A DNA stretch of 64,000 nucleotides from a virus, in IMG/VR virus record IMGVR_UViG_3300027816_004420, positions 62,001 through 126,000 of that record; one strand, 5' to 3'. A program made the translations under genes and the position numbers. Under the pieces are notes generated by a model, which had not been told where the DNA came from, ran no database searches, and saw nothing but the letters and a program-made list of their open reading frames with translations. Shown in pieces: positions 3,440 through 22,791 of the stretch; the stretch's first letter is position 1, and each line of letters starts with the position of its first letter.

Positions 3440-3444
3440 TAATT

Positions 3445-3470
3445 TATAATTATCTTTTCCATTTTTTTAT
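3445..3470 (-). promoter_or_regulatory. Possible variant promoter (A-tract plus TATAAAT) before the 949-aa gene
   Basis: On the minus strand the 31-nt gap reads A7, then 13 nt, then TATAAAT, ending 3 nt before the ATG. The layout matches the other boxes but the core is TATAAAT rather than TATTTAT, so the call is weak. Confidence 0.25.
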
Positions 3471-4508
3471 TTATGAACATCCACCACAATCTACGCTATC
3501 AGTGCAAATAGTTACACTACTACAAGGTTGAATTGATGTAACCCCACCTGAAAAATCACCCGACCCAGCTCGGATGCACCTTTCGACTTTTGAACCTGCA
3601 GAAAGTGGTTCACCAACTACTGAACCATCACATAAAGTATATTGTATTGTTGAACCCACAACATCTTGATTTTCAAAGTAATAACACAAACATGGACAAA
3701 CATAAGTTCCACAAGAGCTTATATCATCGAAATTAGTTATTGCCACTACAACACCATTTAAGATTTCCATAACATAAAGTGGTGGTGACGATATATCAGG
3801 ATTTGCTGGATACGTAGATGGTCCGTATACATATTTTCCTGTAAGAGTTGTGTTTACAAAAAATATTCCAAAAAGATTATAATATAATTGACTGCCAGGT
3901 CCTAAAGTAGTTGAAGAATTGTAATAATACCCTGCGTTTCCATCTACCTCAACTAATGGGTCGAAAGCTTCTATAAAATCACATTTCACTTCTTCTTTTG
4001 TTTTTGATGTCCAATTTATTTCTGACCCACATATAGTTGCCCCATATGATAAAAGAAACTCAACAAATGAAGGTGTAACCGTTGGCGTTTGTGAAGGGGT
4101 TTCTGTTTGGGTAGGAGTTTGAGGAGGTGTTTCAGATTGGGTAGGAGTTTGGGTTTGGGATGGAGTTTGAGTTTGTGTTGGTGTCGATGGAACACAAAGT
4201 GAAAAAGATACTATTTTACCTTGGGAATCAATTACCACTTGATATAATGTTCCTCCGAAAGAAATGATATATGTGTTCCCACCCCCATTCAAAGGGTTAT
4301 ATAATACCCCGTTTAGAAGTGTTTGGTAAATTGTGGCACCTACAACAGGGACTAAATTTGCCTCTGAAATGTATGTATAATAACCTGTTAGATTGAGTGG
4401 TGATGAACAACTATCAGCTGTCGGGTGAAAAACAACAAGAGGTGTTGCGGTTGGTGTTGATGATATAGTTGCTGTATTCGAGGTAGTGGGTGAATTTGTT
4501 GGTGTCAT
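3471..4508 (-). CDS. Thr/Pro-linker fibre protein, likely C-terminal part of a split gene
   Basis: 345 aa beginning MTPTNSPTTSNTATISSTP, that is, directly inside a Thr/Pro hinge with no folded N-terminal module. That is unlike all neighbours. A module (VVFHPTADSCSSP onward), a second TPTQTPS hinge (about 108-140) and a Cys-rich C-terminal module ending CTDSVDCGGCS follow. The ATG overlaps the stop of the upstream 101-aa gene (ATGA). The same frame stays open further upstream and reads LSPTQTPSM, which continues the repeat. It is therefore probably the downstream piece of one protein broken by a 1-nt shift, although coupled re-initiation at the ATGA would also produce it. Role: fibre or adhesin component, inferred. 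Confidence 0.6.
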   Translation of the reverse strand: MTPTNSPTTSNTATISSTPTATPLVVFHPTADSCSSPLNLTGYYTYISEANLVPVVGATIYQTLLNGVLYNPLNGGGNTYIISFGGTLYQVVIDSQGKIVSFSLCVPSTPTQTQTPSQTQTPTQSETPPQTPTQTETPSQTPTVTPSFVEFLLSYGATICGSEINWTSKTKEEVKCDFIEAFDPLVEVDGNAGYYYNSSTTLGPGSQLYYNLFGIFFVNTTLTGKYVYGPSTYPANPDISSPPLYVMEILNGVVVAITNFDDISSCGTYVCPCLCYYFENQDVVGSTIQYTLCDGSVVGEPLSAGSKVERCIRAGSGDFSGGVTSIQPCSSVTICTDSVDCGGCS

Positions 4509-4810
4509 GGATGGCGTTTGGGTTGGTGAAAGGTAGGTGAATACGACGGGGTTGGTGTCATGGTTGGGGTTTTAGTGACATTTGGTGTTGGTGTGGGAGT
4601 TATATCTATAGGAATCTCATCAATACAACCTTGGGTATCTTCAATTTTAATAACAATTGTTGATTCACTATATGGTGATGGGACATAGAATGAGAATGGA
4701 AATGTTGCAACCGACGCAACAAATTGACAGTCGCCACCACCCGAGTTACAATAATATATGTCAACTGGTGTATTTGCAGTTACAGATTGGATAGTTACAA
4801 ATTGACTCAT
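4505..4810 (-). CDS. PFDIY-module protein with Thr/Pro tail, likely N-terminal part of a split gene
   Basis: 101 aa starting MSQFVTIQSVTANTPVDIYY. I chose the start at 4810 because it overlaps the stop of the preceding gene (ATGA); a longer start would run 10 codons into that gene. Residues 1-75 form a small module with the pattern PxDIYxC...C.F...P..F.xPxPY...xxIxDxxGC. It is shared with the 72-aa and 108-aa proteins and with the N-terminus of the 495-aa protein. A Thr/Pro hinge follows (TPTPTPNVTKTPTMTPTPS), which then degenerates abruptly to SPTFHQPKRHP and stops. That out-of-character tail is what a frameshift in the hinge would give. The reading frame of the next gene continues the repeat without a break. 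Confidence 0.6.
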   Translation of the reverse strand: MSQFVTIQSVTANTPVDIYYCNSGGGDCQFVASVATFPFSFYVPSPYSESTIVIKIEDTQGCIDEIPIDITPTPTPNVTKTPTMTPTPSYSPTFHQPKRHP

Positions 4811-5025
4811 GCTACATAAGTTACTCCTGAGATTATGCAATTCTGCGAATCAATTACTTTCAACATGTAAGCCAGTCCAGTATCATATGGTTGTGGTATA
4901 TCAAAATCATATGGAAGAGTTGTTATAGTATTAATATAAAAGCAACCACTACCGTTTGGTTGACAGATATAAATGTCAAATGGTGATTGTCCTGTTATAC
5001 CATTTATTGTAACTTGAACTGCCAT
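4807..5025 (-). CDS. Small PFDIY-module protein (72 aa)
   Basis: 72 aa: MAVQVTINGITGQSPFDIYI, then CQPNGSGCFYINTI, PYDFDIPQPYD and VIDSQNC. It consists of a single stand-alone module with two internal Cys and one near the C-terminus. The same pattern recurs at the start of the 101-aa protein, in the 108-aa protein and at the start of the 495-aa protein, so these are paralogues. It starts 1 nt after the stop of the 1433-aa gene and overlaps the next gene by ATGA, so it is translated in a chain with them. The family is unknown to me. A small decoration or connector piece of the fibre complex is a guess. Confidence 0.65.
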   Translation of the reverse strand: MAVQVTINGITGQSPFDIYICQPNGSGCFYINTITTLPYDFDIPQPYDTGLAYMLKVIDSQNCIISGVTYVA

Positions 5026-5026
5026 C

Positions 5027-8000
5027 TTATGTTGTTCGTTTTATAAAAATTTTATACAAAGTTCCTGTCACTGATGGGAAAACAATTGTGTAACATCCTA
5101 CAAGAGGTTTGTAATTGAATGGTGGATTTGTAAGTTGAACTGAATTCAACACGAAACCGCCATACTTGTTACATTCAACAACTTTTGTTGTTTGTGAGTT
5201 ACCTGAAAGGAGATACCAAGTTCCACTGACATCAACAAACCCACATTGTGCACCGTAACGAATGTATTGTCCGAATTCATTACCAATATCAAACGGAAGG
5301 GTGGTTAGGTTAATTTCATCAGGTGTGCTAGATAAGACGAAGTTCATATTATAAGTTCCGTCTCCATTATTTTCCAAACTTACATTCAAATAAACCTCAA
5401 CTTCATCAACACTACTCAAACACGTATCACAACTCAAATAGGTTTTATCAGGTGCTGAAGCAAAGTAATCTCCATCGAATCTTTGTGAGGTTGCAATTTT
5501 GATAGGTGCAAAATAATTACAATCAAATTCACCCTCATAGGTCCAACAATTTCCATCAGCATCTTTAAATTGTCTTCCAACTGTAGTCTGTATTGGTGAT
5601 TGTTGTGTTTGAATCATATATGTTCTGACTGTATTTGGACTAATTGGAATACAACTTGAATAAACATATACCAAACAAGGGGTTTCACTTGGCGTTGGGG
5701 TCATCGTTGAAGTAGGACTATAAGACGGTGTTTGTGATGGAGTCTGAGTTTGGGTTGGCGTTGATGAATAACTTGGCCTTGGTGTTGCTGTTGGTGTAAG
5801 ACCAGGAGTTGTTGTCTGTGTTGGAGTTGGCGTGAATGTAGGAGTCGAGGACGAAGTTTGTGTCGGCGTAATTGTCATCGTTGGTGTTGATGTAGGTGTT
5901 GATGTTATCGTCGTTGAAGGTGATGGTGAAGGGACTGTTGAACATTTCGAACAATCGTTTCCAAAAATATCAATTATCGAGTCTACGTTCGTGTTAGATG
6001 ATAAGTTTGAATCATCCCTCAAATACTTCAAGCAAAGAATTGTTTCATTAATAACCGCCGAGAATACCATCTCAGTTTGGATTGGAATTTCCTCAAACAC
6101 AAGTGGGTCAGAAGTGTAGAAATAATTTTCAGTTCCACATTGATTCAATACCTTAACCGAAACACAACTGAATGTTTCTTCAAATATATTGAAGGTAACT
6201 TGTCCATCCGCAGGAACTGTTCTTGTCAGTGTTATCGTTGGTGTGTTTGAAGGGGTTGGGGTTGAATCAGGAACATAATTAATCTCAAAGTCGACACTTT
6301 TCCCAAGACATATCAATCCTGTTGGTGATGGAGTTGGCGTTACACCTATGGAAGTGAAAATGAAATTCACATCGTCACAAGGAACTGACGGACTTGGTGT
6401 TGGGACTGGTTCCCAATCACAGTCAAAGTATGCATTGAAATCGAAGGTGTCACAATTTATTGGCGTTGGAGTTGGAGTTGGACAAACTCCTGGTTCAAAA
6501 GAACCGAAAGATATATCAGGACACGCAGAGTAACATGGAGACGAGCCCTTCAATAAACAAGTCCCACCGAGAGAGGTGCTCAGACACCAATAACTCTCAG
6601 TAACTGATGTAAAATAATAAATGTAACCCAAGCTGACGCTTCCACCAGAATAGGAGATTCTACCATTATAAGTTGCACCTGAAACGTAAAGTCCATTGTA
6701 ATTCAACAAAGAAGGTAGGGTTGTAGTAAAGCAAAATTCACCCGAATCACAAGCCGCTGGTGTCGAAGATACTGTCGGAGTGTTTGTTGGTGTTGAATAC
6801 GGGGTTGGCGTTGGTGTGTTCAATAGACAAGCTCTACAACTACCCCAATCAGGTGCACCCAAATCAGGTCCACCAGGACCTGAAAACTCTTCGAATCTAT
6901 AACATCTATTGTTATATTCATAAACCGCTCCTTGATAAGCGGTATCTTCATCAACATTGGCATAAAATATTTCTTCAGTGGAACAGTCAATCAATAATGC
7001 AGCAACACTCGCAACTCTTGGACAAAGTGTAGAACCGCAACCTGTTACATTTGTAAATGTAACCGATGTTCCATCATATATTGGACCACTTCCCGAATCA
7101 ACAACTGTCGCACATCCTTCATATTCTGTAGAACCTGTGATAAGATAGACATCGTCAACCACAACTGCAACTGGTAAATCCTCAAATCTGAATAAAGTCC
7201 CTGAAACACAATCACGGAACCCTATTAGGTTTTGTGTCGGTGTTTGAGTGTTAGTTGGGGTATTAGATGGCGTTTGAGTTGGGTCTGGAGTTACAGAAGG
7301 TGTCTGTGTCGGAGTTTCGGTTTGAGTTTGGGTTGGTGTTACATCAGGGGTTGGTGATAGAGTCTGTGAAGGCGTCTGAGTTGGAGTTTCTGAAGGTGTT
7401 TGTGTAGGAGTCTCAGTTGCTGTAGGGGATGAACCAATAGTTGATGTAGGGGTCTGAGTTGGGGTTTCGGATGGTGTTTGTGTAGGAGTTTCTGAAGGCG
7501 TTTGAGTAATAGTCTCAGTTGGTGTTTGTGTGGGAGTTTCGGTTATTGTAGGAGTCTGAGTTGGGGTTTCAGAAGGTGTTTGAGTAGGGGTTTCAGATGG
7601 TGTTTGTGTAGGTGTTTCTGTTGCTGTAGGTGACGAACCTATAGTTGCGGTTGTTGTTGGTGTAGGCGTTTCGGTTGGAGTTTCAGTTGGAGTTTCAGTT
7701 GTTGTCGGTGTAGGTGTTGGAGTACCACAACAATCTACAAATGTATCCGTAGCATAAGACGATACTGGAAAGTAAGCGACATTGTTTTTATAATAATAAG
7801 TCGACTGAACGTAATTTGCACAAAATGAATCGTCGAAAGTTCCTGCGTCAGCAAAACTTGCCGTGGTCAGTATATTATAACAATTGTAATAGTCTACGAA
7901 TATAGTGTTGTTTAGTGACGAAGGTGTATTACCCGTGGCATCATCCAAGTCAGGTTGTGCAATTGTAACATCAAAATATGTACAATTACAAGGAGTTGAA

Positions 8001-9328
8001 GGGGTTGGAGTTTGTGTTTGAGTTGGCGTAGGAGAAGGGACTACACCACAATCTCCATCAACCACACAAGTTCCTCCCAAAGATGTCCAAGTATATAAAG
8101 GCTCAGGTCCTCCTGCACAGGTAGTTCCCGATGAAACAAGTTTTAATCCTTGTGTTCCACCCGATATACAAATATATCTACTTGATGTCACATCAACTTG
8201 AACACATTCCTCATTTCCATTACACGCGTAGTATCTGATTGAAATATCTACAATATCATTGTTAGTGATTTCCCAACATTCGCAATCACCAGGTGGTGTT
8301 AGGGTAGGTGTTGGGGTAGGTGTTGTAGTTGGCGTCTCAGTAAGAGTTGGTGTCGGTGTTTGTGATGGGCTTACAAAACAAGGACCAACAACGGTCAAAA
8401 TTGCAGATGGACCGCTTATAACGGTTCCAGCCAGTGCACAAAAAACATCAGTATTACCGTTGGTTATTGTGGCGTTTTGGGGTACAGAATCACAATCAGT
8501 GTAAGAATAAGGTTCTGAAATAGGCCCTGAAAAACCTAAATATAATGAATATTGAACACAACCTGTCTGTGGTGTTGGGGTAGGTGTTTGTGTTTGTGTT
8601 TGCGAGATTGCTGGAGCTGGAGGGTCTGGGTCCGTTGGAGTAGGGGTTGGAGTTTCTGTTGGCGTTTCTGTTACAGTTGGAGTTGGTGTAGGGGTAGGAG
8701 TTTCGGTCGGAGTTTCTGTTGGAGTTGAAGAAACTACAGGCCCTACTGAACAAAGTTCTTGATTGTTTAGAATCCCATTACTTCCACTTATTTCCCAAGA
8801 ATAGATTCCGTTAGAATAATATCCGTCAGGCGCAAATGTTGTAAGACCTGAGTCAGAATATAAAGTACTACCACTCCAAAGTCCTTCTACTGATGAGGTG
8901 TAATAACCTGTACCACCTGTAGATGCAAAATCAGAACAAGCAGACGGACCACTTATGACTGAGTATGAAACCAAAAAGGTGTTTGCACCTAATGGACCAC
9001 AAAAATTGTCGTATATTGATATTCCTATTTCAGTAATCCCGTCGTAAATTACGTTGGGAAAAGATTGAGTTGCCGAGCCGCCAGCACCCGCATCAAAATT
9101 TTGTTTTCTACCAGTACTATCTGTAACCTCGATACAACCATTCAACAACCCATTACTCCAATATACAGTAAGAGTGTACTCACCAACTTGTGTAGTGGTG
9201 AATGCACAAGTACTCGAACTTGGCGTACAAGGACATCCCACATCACAAGTTGCTGTAACACCGTTAAAGTCAATTTGACTTATAGTAATTGTGGGTGGTG
9301 ACTGATTATAAACAAATATGTTAGACAT
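5027..9328 (-). CDS. Giant modular Thr/Pro-linker fibre protein (1433 aa)
   Basis: A chain of small Cys-containing beta-rich modules separated by at least eight Thr/Pro/Gln/Glu hinges of TPTQTPSETPTQ type. The longest hinge lies at about 7235-7730 on the plus-strand coordinates. One module carries [20 protein letters not shown], nearly identical to a module in the 495-aa protein, so modules have been shuffled between genes. Inside the long hinge an IGSSPTATETPTQ segment occurs twice with different codons, an old duplication. The C-terminus (about 1290-1433) is a hinge-free domain. There is no signal peptide or membrane segment. Role: probably an extended, flexible host-contact fibre. The dense Thr/Ser would suit O-glycosylation by the adjacent plus-strand enzymes (inference). 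Confidence 0.7.
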   Translation of the reverse strand: MSNIFVYNQSPPTITISQIDFNGVTATCDVGCPCTPSSSTCAFTTTQVGEYTLTVYWSNGLLNGCIEVTDSTGRKQNFDAGAGGSATQSFPNVIYDGITEIGISIYDNFCGPLGANTFLVSYSVISGPSACSDFASTGGTGYYTSSVEGLWSGSTLYSDSGLTTFAPDGYYSNGIYSWEISGSNGILNNQELCSVGPVVSSTPTETPTETPTPTPTPTVTETPTETPTPTPTDPDPPAPAISQTQTQTPTPTPQTGCVQYSLYLGFSGPISEPYSYTDCDSVPQNATITNGNTDVFCALAGTVISGPSAILTVVGPCFVSPSQTPTPTLTETPTTTPTPTPTLTPPGDCECWEITNNDIVDISIRYYACNGNEECVQVDVTSSRYICISGGTQGLKLVSSGTTCAGGPEPLYTWTSLGGTCVVDGDCGVVPSPTPTQTQTPTPSTPCNCTYFDVTIAQPDLDDATGNTPSSLNNTIFVDYYNCYNILTTASFADAGTFDDSFCANYVQSTYYYKNNVAYFPVSSYATDTFVDCCGTPTPTPTTTETPTETPTETPTPTTTATIGSSPTATETPTQTPSETPTQTPSETPTQTPTITETPTQTPTETITQTPSETPTQTPSETPTQTPTSTIGSSPTATETPTQTPSETPTQTPSQTLSPTPDVTPTQTQTETPTQTPSVTPDPTQTPSNTPTNTQTPTQNLIGFRDCVSGTLFRFEDLPVAVVVDDVYLITGSTEYEGCATVVDSGSGPIYDGTSVTFTNVTGCGSTLCPRVASVAALLIDCSTEEIFYANVDEDTAYQGAVYEYNNRCYRFEEFSGPGGPDLGAPDWGSCRACLLNTPTPTPYSTPTNTPTVSSTPAACDSGEFCFTTTLPSLLNYNGLYVSGATYNGRISYSGGSVSLGYIYYFTSVTESYWCLSTSLGGTCLLKGSSPCYSACPDISFGSFEPGVCPTPTPTPINCDTFDFNAYFDCDWEPVPTPSPSVPCDDVNFIFTSIGVTPTPSPTGLICLGKSVDFEINYVPDSTPTPSNTPTITLTRTVPADGQVTFNIFEETFSCVSVKVLNQCGTENYFYTSDPLVFEEIPIQTEMVFSAVINETILCLKYLRDDSNLSSNTNVDSIIDIFGNDCSKCSTVPSPSPSTTITSTPTSTPTMTITPTQTSSSTPTFTPTPTQTTTPGLTPTATPRPSYSSTPTQTQTPSQTPSYSPTSTMTPTPSETPCLVYVYSSCIPISPNTVRTYMIQTQQSPIQTTVGRQFKDADGNCWTYEGEFDCNYFAPIKIATSQRFDGDYFASAPDKTYLSCDTCLSSVDEVEVYLNVSLENNGDGTYNMNFVLSSTPDEINLTTLPFDIGNEFGQYIRYGAQCGFVDVSGTWYLLSGNSQTTKVVECNKYGGFVLNSVQLTNPPFNYKPLVGCYTIVFPSVTGTLYKIFIKRTT

Positions 9329-9437: not shown

Positions 9438-9620
9438 ATGAAACTTCTTAAAACGATAAAGAAGATTATTCAAGAGGCTGAAGAACAGTATAATACTGCA
9501 AGTGAGACTAACACACCACTTGAAGAATTAGATAGACTCGAAAAACACTATCAAGACTCTCTGAAATTGTTACGCTTATACAATTCCAAACAGGAAAAAC
9601 TAAAATCCAAGAAAAAATAA
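9438..9620 (+). CDS. Small charged coiled-coil protein (60 aa)
   Basis: 60 aa, MKLLKTIKKIIQEAEEQYNT onward, almost entirely predicted helix with heptad-like Leu/Ile spacing and a lysine-rich C-terminus (KLKSKKK). I chose the ATG at 9438 rather than the one at 9390 because the TATTTAT box lies between them, 6 nt before 9438. It is the first gene of the plus-strand unit, 52 nt ahead of the GT9 gene. I do not recognise the family. It could be a regulatory or adaptor peptide; nothing in the sequence settles this. Confidence 0.5.
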   Translation: MKLLKTIKKIIQEAEEQYNTASETNTPLEELDRLEKHYQDSLKLLRLYNSKQEKLKSKKK

Positions 9621-9672
9621 TTACATCTTAAGTCAATAGATTTTCTTAAAGTTCTTTCTTATATTTCATCAC

Positions 9673-10611
9673 ATGAAAGAACCTCTATTAGACTTACATC
9701 TGAGTCATGGATTAGGTGACACTATTTGTGCAACACCTTCTTTAAGGAAACTATATTTTGCTTATGGAAAAAAAATATCAGTATTAACTGACCATCCACT
9801 AATATTCAAACATAACAAATATGTTGATAAAATCTTTGATACCAAGAACACAAATAGAGATGATTTAGAATCTCAATACGAATTACTCGTAAGTTTTGCA
9901 CCAAATTTAGAAAACCGATACGGTTTAGGATTACGTCATAATGTTATGGACATAAGACAATTCCATGCGGCGGGGTTGGGTTTCCAATTATTACCCGAGG
10001 AATGTGATATGGATTACGTTCCTGATGAGTGGGAGCCAATTGATGGTTTACCTGAAAAGTTTGTTTTGATACATCCCGTAACCTCTTGGGCTTCGAGAAC
10101 TTGGCCCGCAGAGAAATGGCAGTTATTAACACGAATGTTAAACGATTACGGTATTCCTGTTGTTTCGATGGGGAAGGCATCGAGTGAGGTAGGTTTTCAC
10201 ATGGTAGACAAACCTGTTTTCGATTTCCCTATCAAACTTGGTTTGAATTTAATGAATAAAGCAAATGTCCCCCAAACTTGGTGGTTAATGCAAAAAAGTA
10301 TTTGCACGGTCACCATGGACTCAGGTATGTTACACTTAGCAGGAACCACAGATGCAAACATCATTCAATTAGGTAGTTCTGTTCATTGGAAGTTAAGAGC
10401 CCCTTTTCGAAACGGTTCTCAAGAATATAAATTTCATTATATTGATGGGGATTGTAAGATAGCATGTGCATCTGACATGAGATATGGTGTCAAAGAATGG
10501 GGTTCAATAAGAGGAATCCCACCTTTAGTTGGATGTTTAGAAGGAAAATCCGAATTTGTTTGTCATCCTAGCGTTCTACAAATTTTCAATAAAATATTAA
10601 CCCTATTATGA
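9673..10611 (+). CDS. GT9-type (heptosyltransferase-like) glycosyltransferase
   Basis: 312 aa with the two-Rossmann GT-B layout of the GT9/ADP-heptose transferase family. The N-terminal LSHGLGDTICATPSLRKL is the GLGD loop. FVLIHPVTSWASRTWPAEKW (about 137-156) opens the nucleotide-sugar domain, and TMDSGMLHLAGTTDANIIQL matches the family DSG-x-HLA motif. The C-terminus has a four-Cys cluster, C-x3-C-x22-C-x8-C, recalling the Cys cluster of the fusion protein encoded next. It is probably cytoplasmic and transfers a heptose or other sugar; donor and acceptor are unknown. It overlaps the next gene by ATGA. Its placement with methyltransferases and a protein O-heptosyltransferase between fibre genes suggests modification of virion proteins rather than host LPS (inference). 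Confidence 0.8.
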   Translation: MKEPLLDLHLSHGLGDTICATPSLRKLYFAYGKKISVLTDHPLIFKHNKYVDKIFDTKNTNRDDLESQYELLVSFAPNLENRYGLGLRHNVMDIRQFHAAGLGFQLLPEECDMDYVPDEWEPIDGLPEKFVLIHPVTSWASRTWPAEKWQLLTRMLNDYGIPVVSMGKASSEVGFHMVDKPVFDFPIKLGLNLMNKANVPQTWWLMQKSICTVTMDSGMLHLAGTTDANIIQLGSSVHWKLRAPFRNGSQEYKFHYIDGDCKIACASDMRYGVKEWGSIRGIPPLVGCLEGKSEFVCHPSVLQIFNKILTLL

Positions 10612-13600
10612 GTATAAGATACAACTTTATAGAGGTCGGAACATCAGACTTCATGACTCTAATTCAATCTGCTGATGACCAAACTGTCGGACTCAGTATC
10701 GAACCCATTTCAGAATATCTCGATAGATTACCTAATAAACCCAAAGTTCAAAAAGTCAATGCGGCTCTTTCTGATACAGACGATACTATTGAAATATATC
10801 ATATAGAATCTAAAGATTTAGAAAAATACAATCTTCCCTATTGGATTAGAGGATGTAACTCTGTTAATGGTCCTCATGAATTTACAAAGAAAAAAATTGG
10901 TGATGAAACATATAACAAGTTGGTAAAAATTGATAAAGTCCCAACTATATCTTGGAAAACTTTAATAGAAAAATACAATATAGGTTCAATTGATTATTTA
11001 AAAATTGACACTGAAGGTCATGAACATATAATTTTAAAAGGGTATCTCGAACAATGTAGACTGAATCATAATCTTTTCGCATCTAAAATTGAATTCGAAT
11101 ACAATGAAACATCAAATAAAATTGAATTAGATAAAATTATAAATCAATTATCAAATTATAATGTAACTTATTTGGAGGAAGACGTTATATTGAACATCAA
11201 AACAGAGTCTGAATTTGACAAATCTTATGTCTTATATTCAACCGAAAATTACTTTGATATTGTAACTGAATGTGCAAAATCAATAAGACAATTTAGTAAA
11301 CTACCAATATTGGTTTATTTAATAAATTCAAACAGAACTGTTGAAGTAGAAAATACCAAGACTTTAAATTGGTCTATAGATATCGAACCTACTTCAAATA
11401 ACATGTATATTAAGGAAAGGGACAACTTTTACATAGATAGAAAAAATCCAATAATTTATAAAATTTTATCTCAAAGACCTCTGATTATCAAAGATGCTTT
11501 AGAAAAATATTCAAATATTGTTTGTTATGTTGACAGCGATTCAATCGCAACCCCTAACGTTGATACTATATTTTCATATTATGATGAAAATTCATCTCAC
11601 CCATATTTTGTTGAAGGGATATACGATTTTTTGAAATACGATGGTAGAGGTGGAGGAGGAGGATTCGGAGGTGGAATGGAAACAACTTTGGAACACGATA
11701 CCTGTGTCTTGTTTGGTGTTGACCAATCGGTCAGAAAAAACTATAGACAAACAGGATATTTCGTTTCAGGTCAAAATACCATCGAGTTTTTGGAGGAATG
11801 GTATTGGATGTGCTCACACCCAAAAGTCCTGAAAAATGTTAGTCATTATGCTCCGTATAATGAGGAGACTATTTGTAACGTTCTATTATGGAAATACAAT
11901 ATAGATAAGGGTCTTCCCTATGTCTATGTCAATGGGAGATTAGAAACGGTTGAGAAAATGTATACCCAAGTAGAATATAAAGGAAAGGGTATCAGAAACC
12001 ACATCGGTGAATGGTTAAGAGTTCCTGAAGAAAAAAATCATCTCCTGTTTTTTCATGGTGAAAAAAATCCAAACATGATGAGAGAGATGGTAGATGAAAT
12101 CAAAAAATATAACAAGGAAAAACTTAGAATTTTATACTTAGCACCTCACCTTTCAACTGGTGGTATGCCAGCTTACTTATTGAAAAGAATCGAAACCCTA
12201 CAAGAATATTACCCTGAGGTAGAATTATATGTTGTTGAGTATTGTCTTTACTCAACTTGGTATGTGGTTCAAAAAGAAAAAATAAAACAAATTATACCCG
12301 ATAACAGATATTGGACATTAAACACTTTGGGAAATCATAATGATGAAAATTCTCTGAAGTTAATTCAAATTATAAAAGATAATTCAATTGATATTGTTCA
12401 TGTTGACGAAATACTTGAGGGGTTTGATAGTTTCAATCGAGTATCAATAAATGTCTTAAATGCACTTTTTGATAACAACAGAACTTGGAAAATTGTCGAG
12501 ACCTGTCATAATATTCATTTTAATCCTGAGAATAGACATTTTCATCCCGACGCTTACGCCTTCTGTTCTCCCCATCATCCGAAGGTTCAATTCAAAAATG
12601 AAAATTCTTATTATGAATTTTTTGAATACCCTATTGACCGAAAATTTGTTACCGAAGAACAAAAAGAACACGCAAGGTTAAAACTTGGTTTAGACCTTAA
12701 TAAAACCCATGTGATAAACGTTGGACTTTGGACTCAAGGAAAAAATCAAGGAGAGGGCATCGAAATCGCAAGATATCTACAAGGTGAAGATATAGAGTTT
12801 CATTTCATAGGAAATCAAGCATCAAATTTCGAAAGTTATTGGAAACCTCTGATGATGAATTTACCATCAAATGTAAAAATTTGGGGTGAAAGGAGTGATG
12901 TGGATTTGTTTATGAAAGCATCAGACATATTTTTATTTAACTCCACAATTGAATGTAATCCCCTTGTTCTTAGGGAAGCCGCTTCTTATGGTTTAAAAAT
13001 TCTTTCTAGAAATCTTACACAATATTATGATATGTTTACACCATACATCACACCAATTGATGATGATTGTGAGAAAACGTCAAACATAATTCGTGAGTTA
13101 AAATACAATGGAATCTCAAGAGACTATGAAGTTAGTCATGACCAATCTCAGAACTTTGCTTTATCTCATAAAAAGTTTTATGAGAAGTTAAAAACTATGG
13201 ATATAAAGATTCAAAAATCATCAAAGAATAATATACAAATTACTCAATATTTTATAAGACAACCTTTTTTAGAAATTAAAGGGGATTCAAGTTCTAAGTT
13301 TTTGGTTCAATTCATTGATGATAAAGGGGTAATTCATTATGAAAATAAAATAGATTCCAACTGTTGGGTAAAACTTAACAGACAATATTTTACAAATTGG
13401 AGAACTAAGGTTTACGAAGAAGAAACACTAATATATGACTCGAAATTAGATTTGAAAGACAAAAGAGTGTTTATAAATTTTGATAGTAAATCTTTAGGTG
13501 ACAACATTGCTTGGGTGCCTTATGTTTTGGAGTTTCAAAAGAAACATAATTGTAAAATTATTCTTTCCACATTTTGGAATAAGTTATTCAAAGAAGTTTA

Positions 13601-14297
13601 CCCTGAGATAGAATTCATAGAACCAGGGAATGTTGTAAAAGACATTCATGCACAATACTCCATTGGTTGGTTTTATAATGAAAATATGGAACCAGTAATC
13701 CCGAATACAATTCCTCTCCAAAAAGCAGCAACAAACATCTTAGGTTTGGAATTTGAAGAAATAAAACCACGAATTAATTTTAACGTTTATCGAAGACCTT
13801 TTGATGAAAAATATATAAGTATCGCAACCAATTCCACCTCAGGTTTAAAATTTTGGAAAAAAGAATATTGGCAAGAACTAATTGATTACTTAGTAGATTT
13901 AGGTTTCAAAGTAATAAACGTATCAAAAGAAAAAAATGAGTTCAGAAATGTTACACAAATTTCAGATAGTTCAATTGGTAATACCATGAATGTAATACAT
14001 CATAGTGAATTTTTCATAGGTTTATCAAGTGGACTTTCTTGGTTGTCTTGGGCAATGGGTAAACACGTTGTGATGATTAGTAATTTTACTGAACCCGACC
14101 ACGAATTTACCACAAACTGCACCCGAATTATAAACAAATCAGTCTGTAATGGATGTTGGAATAACCCCAACTTCAAGTTCGATAAAGGTGATTGGGATTG
14201 GTGTCCAATTCACAAAGGAACACCAAGACAATTTGAGTGTCACACTTCAATAACACCAAGTATGGTAATAAATCAAATTCAAAATTTATTGAAATGA
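10608..14297 (+). CDS. Four-domain fusion: FkbM methyltransferase, DxD glycosyltransferase, GT4 glycosyltransferase, TibC/AAH-like protein O-heptosyltransferase
   Basis: 1229 aa. Residues 1-200 are an FkbM-type SAM methyltransferase (FIEVGTSDF at 7-15, hallmark DTEGHE at 134-139). Residues 203-500 resemble a GT-A glycosyltransferase with VDSDS at 308-312 as the metal/donor site; a glycine-rich loop, GRGGGGGFGGG, occupies 346-356. Residues 506-850 are a GT4-type GT-B domain (LAPHLSTGGMPAYL, and the E-x7-E region IECNPLVLREAASYG). Residues 865-1229 match autotransporter O-heptosyltransferases (TibC, AAH): a YFIRQPFLEI beta domain, then FDSKSLGDNIAWVPY, then Cys 1180, 1183, 1199 and 1211 (C-x2-C-x15-C-x11-C), as in the family's iron finger. 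Those enzymes add heptose to Ser residues of adhesin repeats. Start and stop overlap both neighbours by ATGA. Substrate in this phage is inferred to be its Ser/Thr-rich fibres. Confidence 0.8.
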   Translation: MSIRYNFIEVGTSDFMTLIQSADDQTVGLSIEPISEYLDRLPNKPKVQKVNAALSDTDDTIEIYHIESKDLEKYNLPYWIRGCNSVNGPHEFTKKKIGDETYNKLVKIDKVPTISWKTLIEKYNIGSIDYLKIDTEGHEHIILKGYLEQCRLNHNLFASKIEFEYNETSNKIELDKIINQLSNYNVTYLEEDVILNIKTESEFDKSYVLYSTENYFDIVTECAKSIRQFSKLPILVYLINSNRTVEVENTKTLNWSIDIEPTSNNMYIKERDNFYIDRKNPIIYKILSQRPLIIKDALEKYSNIVCYVDSDSIATPNVDTIFSYYDENSSHPYFVEGIYDFLKYDGRGGGGGFGGGMETTLEHDTCVLFGVDQSVRKNYRQTGYFVSGQNTIEFLEEWYWMCSHPKVLKNVSHYAPYNEETICNVLLWKYNIDKGLPYVYVNGRLETVEKMYTQVEYKGKGIRNHIGEWLRVPEEKNHLLFFHGEKNPNMMREMVDEIKKYNKEKLRILYLAPHLSTGGMPAYLLKRIETLQEYYPEVELYVVEYCLYSTWYVVQKEKIKQIIPDNRYWTLNTLGNHNDENSLKLIQIIKDNSIDIVHVDEILEGFDSFNRVSINVLNALFDNNRTWKIVETCHNIHFNPENRHFHPDAYAFCSPHHPKVQFKNENSYYEFFEYPIDRKFVTEEQKEHARLKLGLDLNKTHVINVGLWTQGKNQGEGIEIARYLQGEDIEFHFIGNQASNFESYWKPLMMNLPSNVKIWGERSDVDLFMKASDIFLFNSTIECNPLVLREAASYGLKILSRNLTQYYDMFTPYITPIDDDCEKTSNIIRELKYNGISRDYEVSHDQSQNFALSHKKFYEKLKTMDIKIQKSSKNNIQITQYFIRQPFLEIKGDSSSKFLVQFIDDKGVIHYENKIDSNCWVKLNRQYFTNWRTKVYEEETLIYDSKLDLKDKRVFINFDSKSLGDNIAWVPYVLEFQKKHNCKIILSTFWNKLFKEVYPEIEFIEPGNVVKDIHAQYSIGWFYNENMEPVIPNTIPLQKAATNILGLEFEEIKPRINFNVYRRPFDEKYISIATNSTSGLKFWKKEYWQELIDYLVDLGFKVINVSKEKNEFRNVTQISDSSIGNTMNVIHHSEFFIGLSSGLSWLSWAMGKHVVMISNFTEPDHEFTTNCTRIINKSVCNGCWNNPNFKFDKGDWDWCPIHKGTPRQFECHTSITPSMVINQIQNLLK

Positions 14298-14968
14298 GTA
14301 TAGAAAATTTTATATGGGAACCTAAATGTTACGATGGTTTTAGAGAAACTGTGGAACAAGAAATATTTGTTGACAGGATTTACGAAAGATTTTTTGAGGT
14401 TGAAGAGGGCGATATTGTTTTCGATATTGGGGCTAGTTTAGGTCCTTTCACATATTCAATATTATCAAAGAATCCTTCTCACGTATTTGCTTTTGAGCCT
14501 AGTTTTGAAGAATTCAAAACTTTGTTATTAAATACAAGACACGGAAATGTAACCGCAATAAATAAAGGTATTTCGAGTTCAATAGGTGAATTTAATTTCA
14601 CTGATGTTTTTGATTTGACTGGTGGTTATAAACTATATTCAACAACATTCTCAAAGGTAATTGAGGATTATAATATTAAAAAAATTGACTTTCTTAAAAC
14701 TGATTGTGAATCAGGCGAATATGATATATTCACAATTGAAAATTTGTTTTGGATAAAAAATAATGTCAGAAAAATTGTTGGTGAGTGGCACCTTGGCCAG
14801 CCTTGGATGAAAGAAAAATTCAGAATTTTTAGAGATGTGTATTTGAGGGTTTTTCCTAACTTTAAAGTAATTTCTTTTGATGGAATTGATATAACTTGGC
14901 AAATATGGAATGATAATTTTATCCCTTATTATAACGAAGTAATGATTTATATTGACAATAGTAAATAA
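14294..14968 (+). CDS. FkbM-family SAM-dependent methyltransferase
   Basis: 224 aa beginning MSIENFIWEPKCYDGF. I chose the ATG at 14294 because it overlaps the stop of the fusion gene (ATGA) exactly as that gene does with its predecessor; an earlier in-frame ATG at 14237 lies inside the fusion gene. SAM-binding motif I is VFDIGASLGPFTYSIL, motif II is VFAFEPSFEEF, and KIDFLKTDCESGEYDI corresponds to the FkbM D-x-E-G-x-E signature with Asp-Cys-Glu-Ser-Gly-Glu. FkbM enzymes O-methylate sugar hydroxyls, so a likely role is capping of glycans built by the upstream enzymes. It is the last gene of the island, 1 nt before a bidirectional terminator. Confidence 0.8.
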   Translation: MSIENFIWEPKCYDGFRETVEQEIFVDRIYERFFEVEEGDIVFDIGASLGPFTYSILSKNPSHVFAFEPSFEEFKTLLLNTRHGNVTAINKGISSSIGEFNFTDVFDLTGGYKLYSTTFSKVIEDYNIKKIDFLKTDCESGEYDIFTIENLFWIKNNVRKIVGEWHLGQPWMKEKFRIFRDVYLRVFPNFKVISFDGIDITWQIWNDNFIPYYNEVMIYIDNSK

Positions 14969-14969
14969 A

Positions 14970-15001
14970 AAAAACGCACCCATTTTATTGAGTGCGTTTT
15001 T
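14970..15001. terminator. Bidirectional intrinsic terminator between convergent genes
   Basis: A 10-bp perfect stem (AAAAACGCAC with GTGCGTTTTT) and 12-nt loop lie between the plus-strand methyltransferase (stop at 14968) and the minus-strand collagen-like gene (stop at 15017). The A and T runs of the stem give a U-tract in either direction, so it can serve both convergent units. Confidence 0.85.
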
Positions 15002-15016
15002 GTATTTTTTTATTCC

Positions 15017-18000
15017 TTATACTATTGGACGATACTCGAGTAATACTTTTTCTACGTCTTTTCTCTCAGCATTTATCATAAAGAACGCGTCGATATGAGA
15101 ACTTTGAGAGTCTATGAAGACTTTATTATCTTCAATTTTGACAACAAAGTGTGTATTAGAAACACCAATTGGTGTTAATGATACCGAAATCGATTCCTCT
15201 TTTACTAATCCTATCCAATAATGAGGTAATTCTATTACGTTTCCTTGAACTCTACCTCTGAAATAAACACCATGTTCAGGACCCTCCAACACACCATATC
15301 TTAATCTCCAACCTTCTTTTGTAGGGTGAGGAATATCGAATGATTTAGAAGCCGCTGTTAATGCTCCTGTTATATTAGTGTCACCAGTCACTTTGAGTGT
15401 TGAACCATCAAACTGAAGGTTTTGTTCACCATTGATTGTTCCTGCGGTTCCTGTCGCAGTAAGGACATAGTCATTAACGTTGTTGTTGATTGTCCCGAGT
15501 CCAGAAGAACCTGATGTTCCACTTGTGCCAGAGGAACCTGATGTTCCACTAGTTCCCGAAGAACCTGATGTTCCGCTAGTTCCCGAAGAACCTGATGTTC
15601 CACTAGTTCCCGAGGAACCTGATGTTCCACTAGTTCCCGAAGAACCTGATGTTCCGCTAGTTCCCGAAGAACCTGATGTTCCACTAGTTCCCGAAGAACC
15701 TGATGTTCCGCTAGTTCCCGAAGAACCTGATGTTCCACTAGTTCCCGAAGAACCTGATGAGCCTGATGTTCCACTTGTTCCAGATGAACCTGATGTTCCG
15801 CTCGAACCTGACGTTCCACTTGTTCCAGAAGAACCTGATGTTCCGCTAGTTCCAGATGAACCTGAACTTCCAGATGAACCTGATGTTCCAGATGTTCCAT
15901 TTGTTCCAGAAGTTCCTGACGAACCACTTGAACCAGATGAGCCAGATGTTCCACTTGTTCCAGATGAGCCAGATGTTCCACTTGTTCCAGATGAACCTGA
16001 ACTTCCAGATGAACCTGATGTTCCGCTTGTTCCAGATGTTCCATTAGTTCCAGAAGTTCCTGACGAACCACTTGAACCAGATGAGCCAGATGTTCCACTT
16101 GTCCCTGATGAACCTGATGTTCCACTTGTTCCTGATGAACCACTTGAACCTGATGAACCTGATGTTCCAGATGTTCCATTTGTTCCAGATGTTCCGCTTG
16201 AGCCTGAACTTCCCGAAGAACCTGATGTTCCGCTTGTTCCAGAAGAGCCCGATGTTCCACTTGTTCCTGATGAACCACTCGAACCTGAAGAACCTGATGT
16301 TCCGCTTGTTCCTGATGTTCCGTCAGTTCCACTTGAACCTGAACTACCTGAAGAACCCGAAGTTCCGCTTGTCCCTGAACTACCTGAAGAACCTGAAGTT
16401 CCGCTAGTTCCACTCGAACCTGAACTTCCCGAAGAACCTGAAGTTCCGCTAGTTCCAGATGTTCCGTTTGTTCCAGATGTTCCGCTTGAACCTGAACTTC
16501 CACTTGAACCAGATGTTCCACTTGTTCCCGATGAACCCGATGTTCCAGACGTTCCAGAAGAACCTGAGCTTCCTGAAGAACCTGAAGTTCCGCTAGTTCC
16601 AGATGTTCCGTTTGTTCCACTTGTTCCAGAAGAGCCTGAGGAACCACTTGAGCCTGAGGTTCCAGATGAACCTGATGTTCCGCTTGTTCCAGAAGAGCCA
16701 GATGAACCACTTGAACCAGATGTTCCACTTGTTCCAGATGTTCCGTTCGTTCCAGATGTTCCTGATGAACCACTTGAACCGCTTGAACCAGATGTTCCAC
16801 TAGTACCAGAGGAGCCTGATGTTCCACTTGTGCCCGATGAACCTGAACTACCAGAAGAACCTGATGTTCCGCTAGTTCCAGATGTACCATTTGTGCCAGA
16901 TGTTCCGCTCGAACCTGAGCTACCCGAAGAACCTGATGTCCCTGAAGAACCTGAAGTTCCACTTGTTCCCGATGAACCAGATGAGCCACTAGAGCCAGAT
17001 GTTCCGCTTGTTCCCGATGTTCCGTTTGTTCCAGAAGTCCCAGATGAACCACTTGAACCTGAAGAACCTGAAGTTCCGCTCGTTCCCGAAGAACCTGAAG
17101 AACCTGATGTTCCGCTAGTTCCAGATGAACCACTTGAACCTGAAGAACCTGAAGTTCCGCTAGTTCCAGAAGTTCCATTTGTTCCAGATGTTCCTGAAGA
17201 ACCTGAACTTCCACTCGAACCAGATGTTCCTGATGTTCCAGATGAACCAGATGTTCCACTTGTGCCTGATGAACCTGAGCTACCCGAAGAACCTGAAGTT
17301 CCACTTGTTCCTGATGTCCCAGAAGTTCCATTTGTTCCAGAGGTTCCTGATGAACCTGAGCTACCACTTGAACCTGATGTCCCTGAAGAGCCAGATGTTC
17401 CGCTTGTTCCTGATGAACCACTTGAACCTGACGAACCTGATGTTCCACTTGTTCCCGATGTTCCGTTTGTTCCTGAGGTCCCTGATGAACCGCTTGAACC
17501 AGATGAGCCTGATGTTCCACTTGTTCCAGAAGAACCTGATGTTCCACTTGTTCCAGAAGAACCTGAAGAACCGCTTGAACCTGATGTCCCTGAAGAGCCA
17601 GATGTTCCACTTGTTCCGGAAGAACCTGAAGAACCACTCGAGCCTGAAGTTCCGGAAGAACCTGATGTTCCAGAAGAACCTGAAGTTCCAGATGAACCTG
17701 AAGTTCCAGATGAACCGTTTCCACCTGTTGCACCATCCAAATTGGTTGTCCAACTATTGAATGTTCCTGTTCCGTTTATTTCCAACACATATAATGTCAA
17801 TGCTCCTGTCGAAGAATCATAACTTACAACATCTCCATGGAAGTGATTTGCTAATGAATTAGAAACAATAAGATGTTGTGCAATTGTATATGATAAACCA
17901 GTGCTTGTTGTTAAAGAAGTATTAGCACTTAACGTTAGTGTTGATAAATCAATTGATGTTGTTGAAGTTCCACTGTATTGTGCACTAATTCCTGATGTTC

Positions 18001-21000
18001 CAGATGTTCCGTTCGTTCCAGATGTTCCTGATGAGCCACTCGAACCAGATGAACCCGATGTTCCGCTAGTTCCTGATGAACCAGATGTTCCGCTAGTTCC
18101 AGATGAACCTGAACTTCCTGATGAACCTGAAGTTCCACTCGTCCCAGATGTTCCATCTGTTCCAGATGTTCCTGAAGAACCACTCGAACCTGATGAACCT
18201 GAAGTTCCACTTGTTCCTGAACTACCTGAAGAACCTGAAGTTCCACTTGTCCCTGAAGAACCAGATGAACCACTTGAACCTGAAGTCCCACTAGTTCCTG
18301 ATGTTCCATTTGTTCCAGATGTCCCACTCGAGCCTGAACTTCCGCTTGAACCCGATGTTCCTGAAGAGCCAGATGTTCCGCTAGTCCCAGATGAACCTGA
18401 ACTTCCCGAAGAACCTGATGTTCCACTTGTTCCAGATGTCCCATCTGTTCCAGATGTTCCTGATGAACCTGAGCTACCCGAAGAACCAGATGTTCCTGAT
18501 GAACCAGATGTTCCACTTGTCCCTGATGAACCAGATGAACCGCTCGAACCTGAAGTTCCGCTTGTTCCTGATGTTCCATCAGTTCCACTTATTCCTGAAG
18601 AACCACTTGTTCCCGAACTTCCTGATGAACCATCAAGGCCATTTAATAAAATCCAACCACTAAGTGAAGATGGTTCATTTGTATTATTATTTATAGTTGA
18701 TTGGTATGAAAATAAACCATCTATAACCATATCGCCATCCATATAAGTTGTTCCCGATACATAAGCTCCTTTGAATGGAGATGTTCCTGATGAACCTGAA
18801 GTTCCAGATGAGCCACTTGTTCCTGATGTTCCGTTTACTCCACTTAATCCACTAGAACCACTCGAGCCTGATGTCCCATCAGTCCCTGAAGAACCACTTG
18901 AACCTGATGTTCCGTCTATTCCACTAGTTCCAGAAGAACCTGATGTTCCACTTGAGCCTGAAGAACCTGAGCTACCAGATGAACCTGATGTTCCACTTGT
19001 GCCTGAAGAACCTGAGCTACCAGATGAACCTGATGTTCCACTTGTTCCTGAACTACCATCTGTTCCACTTGAGCCTGAAGAACCTGAGCTACCAGATGAA
19101 CCTGATGTTCCACTAGTTCCTGATGAACCACTTGAACCTGAGGTTCCGCTAGTTCCCGAAGTGCCGTCTGTCCCACTTGAGCCAGATGAACCTGAAGTTC
19201 CACTAGTTCCCGAAGTGCCGTCTGTCCCACTTGTTCCAGAAGAACCTGATGTTCCACTTGTGCCTGAAGAACCACTTGAACCTGATGTCCCACTTGTTCC
19301 TGAAGTGCCGTCTATTCCGCTAGTTCCTGAACTACCGTCTGTTCCACTTGAGCCTGAAGAACCTGAGCTACCAGATGAACCTGATGTTCCACTAGTTCCT
19401 GAAGAACCATCTGTTCCACTGGAACCAGATGAACCTGATGTTCCACTAGTTCCTGAAGAACCATCTGTTCCACTAGAACCAGATGAACCTGATGTTCCAC
19501 TTGTGCCTGAAGAACCTGAGCTACCAGATGAACCCGATGTTCCACTAGTTCCTGAAGTTCCGTCCATTCCGCTAGTTCCTGAAGAACCACTTGAACCTGA
19601 TGTTCCGCTAGTTCCCGAAGTGCCGTCTGTCCCACTTGAGCCAGATGAACCTGAAGTTCCACTAGTTCCCGAAGTGCCGTCTGTCCCACTTGTTCCAGAA
19701 GAACCTGATGTTCCACTTGTGCCTGAAGAACCACTTGAACCTGATGTCCCACTTGTTCCTGAAGTGCCGTCTATTCCGCTAGTTCCTGAACTACCGTCTG
19801 TTCCACTTGAGCCTGAAGAACCTGAGCTACCAGATGAACCTGATGTTCCACTAGTTCCTGAAGAACCATCTGTTCCACTGGAACCAGATGAACCTGATGT
19901 TCCACTAGTTCCTGAAGAACCATCTGTTCCACTAGAACCAGATGAACCTGATGTTCCACTTGTGCCTGAAGAACCTGAGCTACCAGATGAACCCGATGTT
20001 CCACTAGTTCCTGAAGTTCCGTCCATTCCGCTAGTTCCTGAAGAACCACTTGAACCTGATGTTCCGCTAGTTCCTGAAGTTCCATCAATACCACTAGTTC
20101 CTGAAGTTCCATCAATACCACTAGTTCCTGAAGAACCTGATGTTCCATCGATACCACTTGTTCCAGAAGTTCCATCTAATCCGCTTGTTCCTGAAGTTCC
20201 ATCAATACCACTAGTTCCTGAAGTTCCATCGATACCACTTGTTCCTGATGAACCTGATGTTCCATCGATACCACTTGTTCCTGATGAACCTGATGTTCCA
20301 CTTGTTCCCGACGAACCACTTGAGCCTGAAGTTCCACTAATTCCTGAAGTTCCAGATGTTCCGTCTATTCCGCTAGTCCCAGATGTTCCGTCTATTCCGC
20401 TAGTCCCAGATGTTCCGTCTATTCCGCTAGTTCCTGATGTTCCATCTGTTCCACTGGAACCAGATGAACCTGATGTTCCACTAGTTCCTGAAGAACCATC
20501 TGTTCCACTAGAACCAGATGAACCTGAAGAACCTGATGTCCCATCAATTCCACTTGTTCCTGATGTCCCATCAATTCCACTAGTCCCTGATGTTCCGTCT
20601 AAACCGCTTGTTCCAGAAGAACCAGATGTTCCATCTAATCCACTTGTTCCTGATGTCCCATCAATTCCACTAGTTCCTGAGGTTCCATCAATTCCACTAG
20701 TTCCTGAGGTTCCATCTATGCCACTTGAACCAGACGTTCCGTCTACTCCACTTGTTCCTGAAGTGCCATCTATTCCAGATGTTCCACTCGAACCAGAAGT
20801 TCCGGATGTTCCGTCTAATCCGCTTGTTCCTGAAGTTCCATCAATTCCACTAGTTCCTGATGTTCCGTCTATTCCGCTAGTTCCAGAAGAGCCTGATGTT
20901 CCGTCTAAACCACTTGTTCCTGAAGTGCCATCTACCCCAGATGTTCCACTCGAACCAGAAGTTCCGTTGATACCACTTGAGCCAGAAGTCCCGTCGATTC

Positions 21001-21193: not shown

Positions 21194-21198
21194 AGCTT

Positions 21199-21205
21199 AT
21201 AAATA
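21199..21205 (-). promoter_or_regulatory. TATTTAT box, putative promoter of the collagen-like gene
   Basis: Minus strand: A6, 13 nt, TATTTATA, 5 nt to the ATG at 21193. It lies in the 38-bp gap between two fibre genes. Confidence 0.45.
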
Positions 21206-21231
21206 TTTTCTATTAATCTTTTTTATTTGGT

Positions 21232-22719
21232 TTAACATGGTTGCCATAGTCCTCCGACAACAAATCCATCACTATCTATTTGCCAATATCCTGTGAGAGA
21301 GTCGGTGCTGTTGGTATACCAATAATTATTCCCGTTGAAAGGCGTATTGAATGAACTGTCTGCAAAGAATCTCGTTGCACTATACCAATCATTCGATGGA
21401 CTGTAAATTGTTTGACCCAACGTTTGTGGGTCTATACATATTGGTTGTGTTGTTTCCCCTGATGAAACTAAGAATGATGTAATTTCTTGTTGAGCACCAA
21501 TTGGGTCACCATTTTGAGCAATTAATTCTTGACCATCTTGAGTTATAATTAAAATCTCAAATACGGATGGAGTTGCTGTTGGTGAAGGAGTAAACGAAGG
21601 GGTTGGTGTATTAGTTTCTGTTGGAGTTGGTGTGTTAGTTTCTGTTGGAGTTGGTGTGTTAGTTTCTGTTGGAGTAGGAGTCGGAGATATCAAACATCCG
21701 TTAGGGTCCGAACTTGTGATTAGACCTGCTCCGCCTGTAACTCTATACCAAGCAACACCGTTGGAATAGTATCCGTCAGGTGCTGGTGTTGTAAGAGCCG
21801 AATCAGTATATAAAGTTTCCCCAATGTTAGGTCCAGGTCCATCTCCAGGTCCACTGTAGAAGTTAGTTGGTGATGAGTAAAAATTACCACACGATGTTAA
21901 TGAGCTAGATAAATCATAACCTAATGAATATTCCCAATATGCTCTTGAAGCTGTAGGTGTTGTTGTCGGTGTTGCGGTTGGAGTTTCAGTTTGCGTAGGT
22001 GTTTGTGTTGGAGTCTCAGTATTTGTTGGGGTTGGAGTCTCTGTAGGCGTCTCGCTTGGTGTTACAGATGGTGTTGGTGTGTTAGTTTCAGTTGGAGTTT
22101 GAGTTGGTGTCTCACCAGGTGTTGCGGTAGGTGATTCTGTAGGTGTTTGTGATGGGGTTTCGGTTGGAGTTCCCGTCTGTGTTGGTGTAGGAGTTTCAGA
22201 AGTAGAAGGGGTCGGTGTAGGAGTTGTTGTTGGTGTCTCCGTTTGTGTTGGGGTCGGCGATTCTGTTGCAGTTGGTGTTTGACCAGGGCTTGCAGTTATA
22301 CTTGGAGTTGGTGTTTGTGTCTGAGTTTCAGTTGGAGTTTGTGTTGGAGTCTCTGAAGTTGTTGGAGTCTGTGTTGTTGTTGGTGTTTCTGTAGGTGTAG
22401 AATTAGGGGTTCCTGTATTTGTTGGTGTAGGTGTAAACGTAGGTGTTACAGTAGGAGTAGGTGTAGGTGTAGGGGTAACGCATTCAAATGTAATAACAAC
22501 TCCGTTGAACATTTCGGTTCTTGTCTGTGCAGAGGCATAAAGAGTTGCGGCTGAAAGGTAGGTCGAAGTCCCATAATAGATATCGAATGGACCTAAGGCA
22601 TTAGAATTCTGAGATAATCTTACAATGTAAGTGACACATCCCGTAACCGAGACCTGTTGCGTAACTACTGTATTACAACCTTCAGCAGTATTGACACAAA
22701 AAATATTATAAAGGGACAT
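21232..22719 (-). CDS. Thr/Pro-linker fibre protein with PFDIY and APDGYYSNG modules (495 aa)
   Basis: Residues 1-82 are a PFDIY-type module ([30 protein letters not shown]). Residues 83-255 are a Thr/Pro/Glu/Gln hinge. Residues 256-345 carry [20 protein letters not shown], nearly identical to a module in the 1433-aa fibre. A second hinge then contains three tandem 24-bp copies encoding TPTPTETN (about 21604-21680). The C-terminal module holds [20 protein letters not shown], a diverged version of the same APDGYYSNG module. There is no signal peptide. It probably belongs to the same fibre or adhesin complex as its neighbours. The ATG at 22719 follows a TATTTAT box by 14 nt. Confidence 0.7.
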
Positions 22720-22733
22720 CCGCGGTTTTTTTA

Positions 22734-22740
22734 ATAAATA
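22734..22740 (-). promoter_or_regulatory. TATTTAT box, putative promoter of the 495-aa gene
   Basis: TATTTAT on the minus strand, 14 nt before the ATG at 22719, in a 72-bp gap. An A7 tract here lies downstream of the box rather than upstream, so the match to the fuller pattern is partial. Confidence 0.35.
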
Positions 22741-22791
22741 CCACGATTATCTATTTGAATATCTCGAAACGAAAAATTATTAAATACTTTA

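Follow-up and report, generated by a model that had tools for sequence, protein, structure and literature searches.

The window analyzed here, a 64,000-nt stretch comprising bases 62001-126000 of the 149,631-bp IMG/VR phage record IMGVR_UViG_3300027816_004420, carries nearly all of its genes on the minus strand, and the island at 9438-14968 is the plus-strand exception. We consider it probable that this island is a cassette dedicated to O-glycosylating a collagen-like fiber made by the phage itself. Its central gene (10608-14297) encodes a 1229-aa fusion protein ending in a TibC-family domain, and convergent with the island lies the gene for a 2058-aa collagen-like fiber protein (15017-21193, minus strand), the proposed acceptor. 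TibC domains are paired with such Gly-Thr/Ser-Ser (GTS/GSS) repeat proteins in bacteria and in dozens of phages of diverse kinds, so this phage probably decorates its own fiber with a sugar coat. The source phage is freshwater-type and T4-like, and its record encodes T4-type baseplate, ribonucleotide reductase (RNR), DnaB, exonuclease, UvsX, and SSB genes.

That the C-terminal part of the fusion would resemble TibC had been anticipated in the original prediction of a phage self-glycosylation system, and a match was found by profile, by sequence, and by structural model. The NCBIfam profile TIGR04414 (BAHT) scored 293.6 bits on the fusion, against a family cut-off of 200, and a PDB sequence search matched E. 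coli TibC to residues 915-1224 (E=1e-52). An AlphaFold model of residues 855-1229 (predicted local distance difference test, pLDDT, 89) gave template modeling (TM) scores of 0.84-0.85 to the TibC/AAH-family structures 4RAP/4RB4 over ~371 columns. This superposition spans nearly the whole TibC fold, with the N-terminal beta-barrel and the catalytic domain of glycosyltransferase (GT) type GT-B, and lipopolysaccharide (LPS) heptosyltransferases fell far lower than TibC in the same comparison. Residues were compared on the basis of the published TibC structure (PMC4358343). Equivalents of Asp110, Thr226, Lys230, and Trp305 are present in the window protein; those of Asp110, Lys230, and Trp305 occur in 83/83 viral rows and that of Thr226 in 82/83. 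All four cysteines of the iron finger (Cys339, 342, 358, and 370) are kept, and the viral rows are invariant at these positions apart from one gapped row end. The position of Pro300, which sets heptose stereoselectivity in TibC (PMC4358343), is Ser in the fusion, as in AAH. Relatives 44-70% identical retain the catalytic and metal-binding residues other than Arg286. Judged from the modeled fold together with the aligned catalytic site, the C-terminal domain (residues ~876-1229; 13233-14294, plus strand), with its beta-barrel, catalytic Asp, and four-Cys iron finger, is a TibC/AAH-family protein O-glycosyltransferase.

The gene had previously been described as a fusion with a TibC domain, which holds, and two further transferase domains had been missed. 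The complete order is FkbM, GT-A-like, GT4, and TibC. Residues 1-195 (11192 being the last base of 10608-11192) form an FkbM-type methyltransferase domain (PF05050, 4.3e-13, residues 21-183). The GT-A-like domain at residues 196-512 (11193-12143) carries an invariant D-x-D motif (YVDSDS) that is conserved in 31 aligned rows; it was delimited with an AlphaFold model (pLDDT 85 over 690 aa) in which the domain is confident. It belongs to no curated family, and a profile search returned no PDB relative and weak Pfam GT8 matches. Residues 513-862 (12144-13193) constitute a GT4 domain of GT-B type (PF00534, 2.3e-8, residues 687-810), whose model matched PimB', BshA, and HepE by Foldseek at E values of 1e-12 to 1e-13. 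The 1229-aa ORF (open reading frame) is identical across eight IMG/VR contigs (L005-L012), so the fusion did not arise from misassembly. GT4 and TibC mostly remain fused as a core in relatives, while GT-A, FkbM, other methyltransferase, and GT25 modules have been gained, lost, or reordered; the protein is thus a modular glycan-building one. A PHROGs search of the island transferases returned nothing informative except FkbM, and a fold search of a viral library led to other viral transferases, the nearest being a 985-aa protein of Virus NIOZ-UU157 (48% identical).

The proposed acceptor contains 574 Gly-X-Y triplets, in which X is Thr or Ser in 93% and Y is Ser in 88%, and in which Pro is absent. 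Uninterrupted runs of 252, 73, and 249 triplets make it collagen-like. Its GTS/GSS repeat region occupies 15494-21046 (minus strand), followed by a C-terminal non-repeat domain (15020-15493, minus strand; phrog_17490, 2.8e-40, and tblastn) that also occurs in the 'putative tail fiber-like protein' of a Flavobacterium phage and in cyanophage proteins. More generally, the seven window genes with the highest Ser+Thr content (23-54%) lie to either side of the island, at 590-9328 and 15017-25256, in agreement with the earlier statement that the genes richest in these residues are found on both flanks. On the other flank, they include a 1433-aa TPTQT-rich virion-type protein (5027-9328, minus strand), a possible though not a consistent partner of the island; a similar gene adjoins TibC in locus L359.

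To survey the pairing in phages, the TibC domain by itself was used to gather 60 clusters (90% identity) out of viral contigs and three public phages. A GTS/GSS ORF was found in the available flank of 50 of these 60 clusters (median distance 813 bp; 49/50 within 5 kb). Forty of the 50 ORFs are downstream and convergent, 6 are on the 5' side, and 4 are downstream on the same strand; with arrangements so varied, the pair is not one inherited block. Six of the 10 clusters without a GTS ORF have <3.2 kb of 3' flank. Strict GTS DNA repeats are present in 27/28 long TibC contigs, and the remaining one (L078) has GTSGSSG by translation, compared with 4/21 control contigs picked by the window's RNR (Fisher p=1e-8); TibC occurs in 1/21 of these controls, which is GTS-positive. 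In the reverse test, TibC was found in 20/38 contigs picked by the GTS DNA pattern alone and in 0/17 GTS-negative controls, and a second Fisher test on the TibC/GTS pairing gave p=1e-4. The transferase genes are therefore linked to the structural gene proposed as their target, and almost all related phages with a TibC fusion keep a GTS fiber, in line with the expectation that a Ser/Thr-rich fiber would accompany the island. The original proposal that the phage glycosylates its own fibers is supported for the GTS/GSS fiber, which is a consistent partner, and not for the TPT-rich fibers, which are not. The latter were considered as the main partner and dropped, as most TibC loci have no TPT genes.

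Several additional features of these records were observed. Two viral records (G031 and G043) have three TibC-type matches each, some of them stand-alone (~400 aa). The 735-kb phage genome LR756501.1, which also has a TibC gene, shows an extreme load of 1456 GTS DNA pattern matches on one strand (minus, from ~103558 onward). In the cultured Microcystis phage Mel-JY01 (PP395634.1, 1-3052), which also has a TibC fusion, a GTS collagen-like gene lies on the plus strand and the record begins inside the repeat; an antisense coding sequence (739-2298, minus) and only the C-terminal part of the GTS gene (2519-3052) are annotated. IMG/VR contigs likewise often end in GTS repeats, which biases presence/absence surveys of these fibers.

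A scan of GTDB genomes yielded 40 TibC-family loci. In 11/12 proteobacterial genomes (nearly all gammaproteobacteria), a stand-alone TibC homolog adjoins a small secreted or lipobox GTS/GSS protein, although a number of contigs classed as cellular may derive from phages. Methylobacter luteus and Methylomicrobium sp. RS1 are examples of bacteria with such neighboring TibC and GTS genes. The spacing is mostly 8-180 bp and reaches 1.5 kb, and in seven of these genomes (2-5 Mb) the GTS pattern was found nowhere else. A Bacillota/Paraburkholderia TibC clade without GTS partners stands apart on the tree from the GTS-paired proteobacterial sequences. The tree intermixes viral with bacterial rows, which means that not every pairing counts as an independent one. 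Nevertheless, the bacterial pairing is hard to explain by co-location within a tail module and provides the strongest argument for GTS repeats as the substrate.

TibC modifies its substrate within the cell, ahead of export, and the cytoplasm is also where phage fibers are made. We propose that, in the infected cytoplasm, the TibC domain would add the first sugar, probably heptose, to serines of the newly made (Gly-Thr/Ser-Ser)n fiber. This sugar would then be extended by the GT4 and GT-A domains of the fusion together with the stand-alone GT9 enzyme, and the FkbM domains would O-methylate the glycan, an order that we infer from the families involved. A single polypeptide could in this way cover attachment, extension, and capping before the glycosylated fiber is built into the virion. 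Stiffness or protease resistance are guesses at the benefit. Genes for APS kinase-like, sulfotransferase-like, carbamoyltransferase, and acetyltransferase proteins at other TibC loci suggest further decoration of such glycans.

A number of observations weigh against this reading, some of them concerning the donor. TibC Arg286 contacts adenine, and its Ala mutant is inactive or nearly so (PMC4358343); the equivalent position is Thr in the window protein and in 74/83 viral rows. For this reason, ADP-heptose is put forward as no more than the likeliest donor of the domain, and the donor may differ. Heptose is accordingly not certain. Related phage L078/L359, with TPT fiber genes like those of the window, encodes in the same region homologs of HldE kinase (124 bits), HldE adenylyltransferase (84.6 bits), and HldD (193.7 bits), which favor heptose as the sugar; these matches are all under the NCBIfam cut-offs, yet the Hld families are the best matches. 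TIGR02199 was matched in 5/50 TibC phage records, once over its cut-off. A search of the phage's own contig for an rfaE adenylyltransferase, the sole heptose-donor gene sought, gave no match, and we assume that the host supplies the donor. As for the pairing, the controls are partial contigs of lesser length, drawn from other lineages and a different phage sample, and GTS repeats interrupt assemblies. The variable fiber region houses both TibC and GTS genes, so that linkage in phages alone could be co-location. A 636-kb record (LR756504) contains no GTS repeat despite a TibC that is divergent and stand-alone, and L055, L014, and the bacterium of L330 have no GTS partner in the available sequence. 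Finally, the argument as a whole is drawn from genes and models.

The same genes could be read in other ways. Fiber-adjacent phage transferases are usually interpreted as LPS-modifying (PMC7029224). LPS loci often contain GT9, GT4, and FkbM genes, and some related phages have rfaE-type genes; the island might then remodel host LPS or capsule during infection, for receptor masking or superinfection exclusion, with the fiber genes as mere neighbors in a host-recognition module. We regard this as unlikely, because the central domain is TibC, a transferase acting on protein Ser, and not an LPS GT9, and because TibC is paired with GTS proteins in bacteria outside fiber modules and in several phage gene orders. 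It is still less likely that the island acts on another virion or host protein, such as TPT fibers, SprB-like proteins, or capsid proteins, instead of the GTS fiber. TPT genes do flank the island here, in L359, and in L013, and Thr/Pro-rich stretches look mucin-like, but most TibC loci have GTS and no TPT genes, TPT genes elsewhere in this phage genome adjoin a different transferase cluster, and TibC modifies Ser, not Thr (PMC4358343).

The Thr at the adenine-reading Arg286 position in 74/83 viral rows could also indicate that the domain has decayed or been re-purposed and is no longer a TibC-type enzyme. This is very improbable: the ORF is intact and, Arg286 aside, the divergent relatives retain the catalytic and metal-binding residues, a sign of selection on activity, perhaps with a different donor. 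Modification of phage DNA to evade restriction by hypermodified bases is a known role of some phage transferases and has been cited for aquatic phages, but here we give it almost no credence. TibC has protein as its substrate, glycans or natural products are the typical targets of FkbM enzymes, searches of the island genes in Pfam, PHROGs, and NCBIfam matched no DNA-modification family, and the genetic link is to a fiber.

Glycosylation of the phage's own collagen-like fiber has parallels in known systems. Virion glycosylation in mycobacteriophages and TibC/AAH with autotransporters are already known. With TibC/AAH (TIGR04414; 4RAP, 4RB4), the island shares the fold with beta-barrel and iron finger, the catalytic Asp, Lys, and Trp, and the position beside a gene for a long repetitive Ser-rich surface protein; it differs in the fusion to FkbM, GT-A, and GT4, in Thr for Arg286, and in that the partner is a collagen-like GTS fiber and not an autotransporter. 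Further marks of the TibC/AAH family are a dodecameric ring and Ser heptosylation activity. In mycobacteriophages, capsid and tail-tube subunits are glycosylated at their C-termini (Freeman et al. 2023, as cited in PMC12619734). As far as that citation describes it, their system is similarly phage-encoded and directed at own virion proteins, as would be the case for the fiber, whereas here a TibC-family enzyme and a collagen-like fiber are involved. Sugar is also present on surface collagen-like filaments of bacteria, such as BclA of Bacillus spores (PMC8968730). The BclA system differs in its repeat and transferases and belongs to a spore, not a phage, and the phage GTS triplets have no Pro. 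The BclA repeat is GPT-rich. Pelagimyophages, which are T4-like, also have transferases among their tail-fiber genes, but these were interpreted as modifying the LPS O-chain, and the term TibC/heptosyltransferase was not found in that paper (PMC7029224). Fiber-region transferases of aquatic phages have so far been read as LPS or DNA modifiers (for LPS, PMC7029224), and our literature search, thin on subscription journals, returned no description of TibC fusions in phages or of TibC with GTS collagen-like repeats. If our reading is correct, many aquatic phages modify their own long fibers by means of enzymes whose family had until now been known from the autotransporter adhesins of bacteria, and fiber-adjacent phage transferases filed as LPS-modifying need re-reading. 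It would also suggest what the abundant GTS/GSS repeat proteins in phage metagenomes and some bacteria may do, and provide single-protein multi-step glycosylating enzymes.

A Pro-free Gly-X-Y chain would be expected to form a weak triple helix, of uncertain stability unless modified, and for lack of Pro in the triplets a sugar might stabilize it. A more tentative and rather doubtful extension is a widespread, hitherto unrecognized glyco-collagen system, in which TibC-family enzymes, as multi-enzyme fusions in aquatic phages and stand-alone in bacteria, would be specialized on Pro-free Gly-Thr/Ser-Ser repeats. Dense Ser-linked sugar would replace proline/hydroxyproline and yield a rigid triple-helical fiber of up to ~half a micrometer (574 triplets, with each residue adding the 0.286 nm of the collagen rise).

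The ORF map and Pfam/NCBIfam searches (GT9, FkbM twice, and TibC) bear out the earlier list of plus-strand genes. The gene-like plus-strand ORFs of the window are only 9438-9620, 9673-10611, 10608-14297, and the second FkbM ORF, beside which the remaining long plus-strand ORFs are antisense readings of fiber repeats. The first encodes a conserved 60-aa Lys/Glu-rich protein whose homologs head the island in L013 (57% identical) and L014 (70%). The second encodes a 312-aa heptosyltransferase-like GT9 protein (PF01075, 5.2e-12), with heptsyl_trn_I as its best NCBIfam match (32 bits, under the family cut-off). The last, a 224-aa FkbM methyltransferase (14294-14968; PF05050, 9.2e-7; TIGR01444, 50.7 bits, cut-off 37.7), likely starts at ATG 14294, in an ATGA overlap with the fusion stop, rather than at GTG 14237. 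Between the convergent genes, a hairpin with A and T runs on its sides (14968-15003) is likely, from its sequence, a bidirectional terminator.

Other genes of related function were also noted. Near the TibC fusion in L014, there are a NodU-type carbamoyltransferase (10053-11765) and, by inspection, a sulfotransferase-like ORF (6766-7446), as for decorated sugars. At 17074-17899 (L085) of the phage studied here, APS-kinase-like and adenylyltransferase-like ORFs were recognized by inspection; they resemble an adjacent pair beside TibC fusions in L019 and L025 and possibly have a sulfation or nucleotide-sugar role. The far end of the phage contig (142952-147509 and 147580-149631; L089 and L090) has a second transferase-like cluster, again by inspection and with one GT25-like ORF, beside another TPT-rich protein. 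The protein at window positions 590-3439 contains SprB repeats (PF13573), a gliding-adhesin repeat of Bacteroidota, which suggests a Bacteroidota host.

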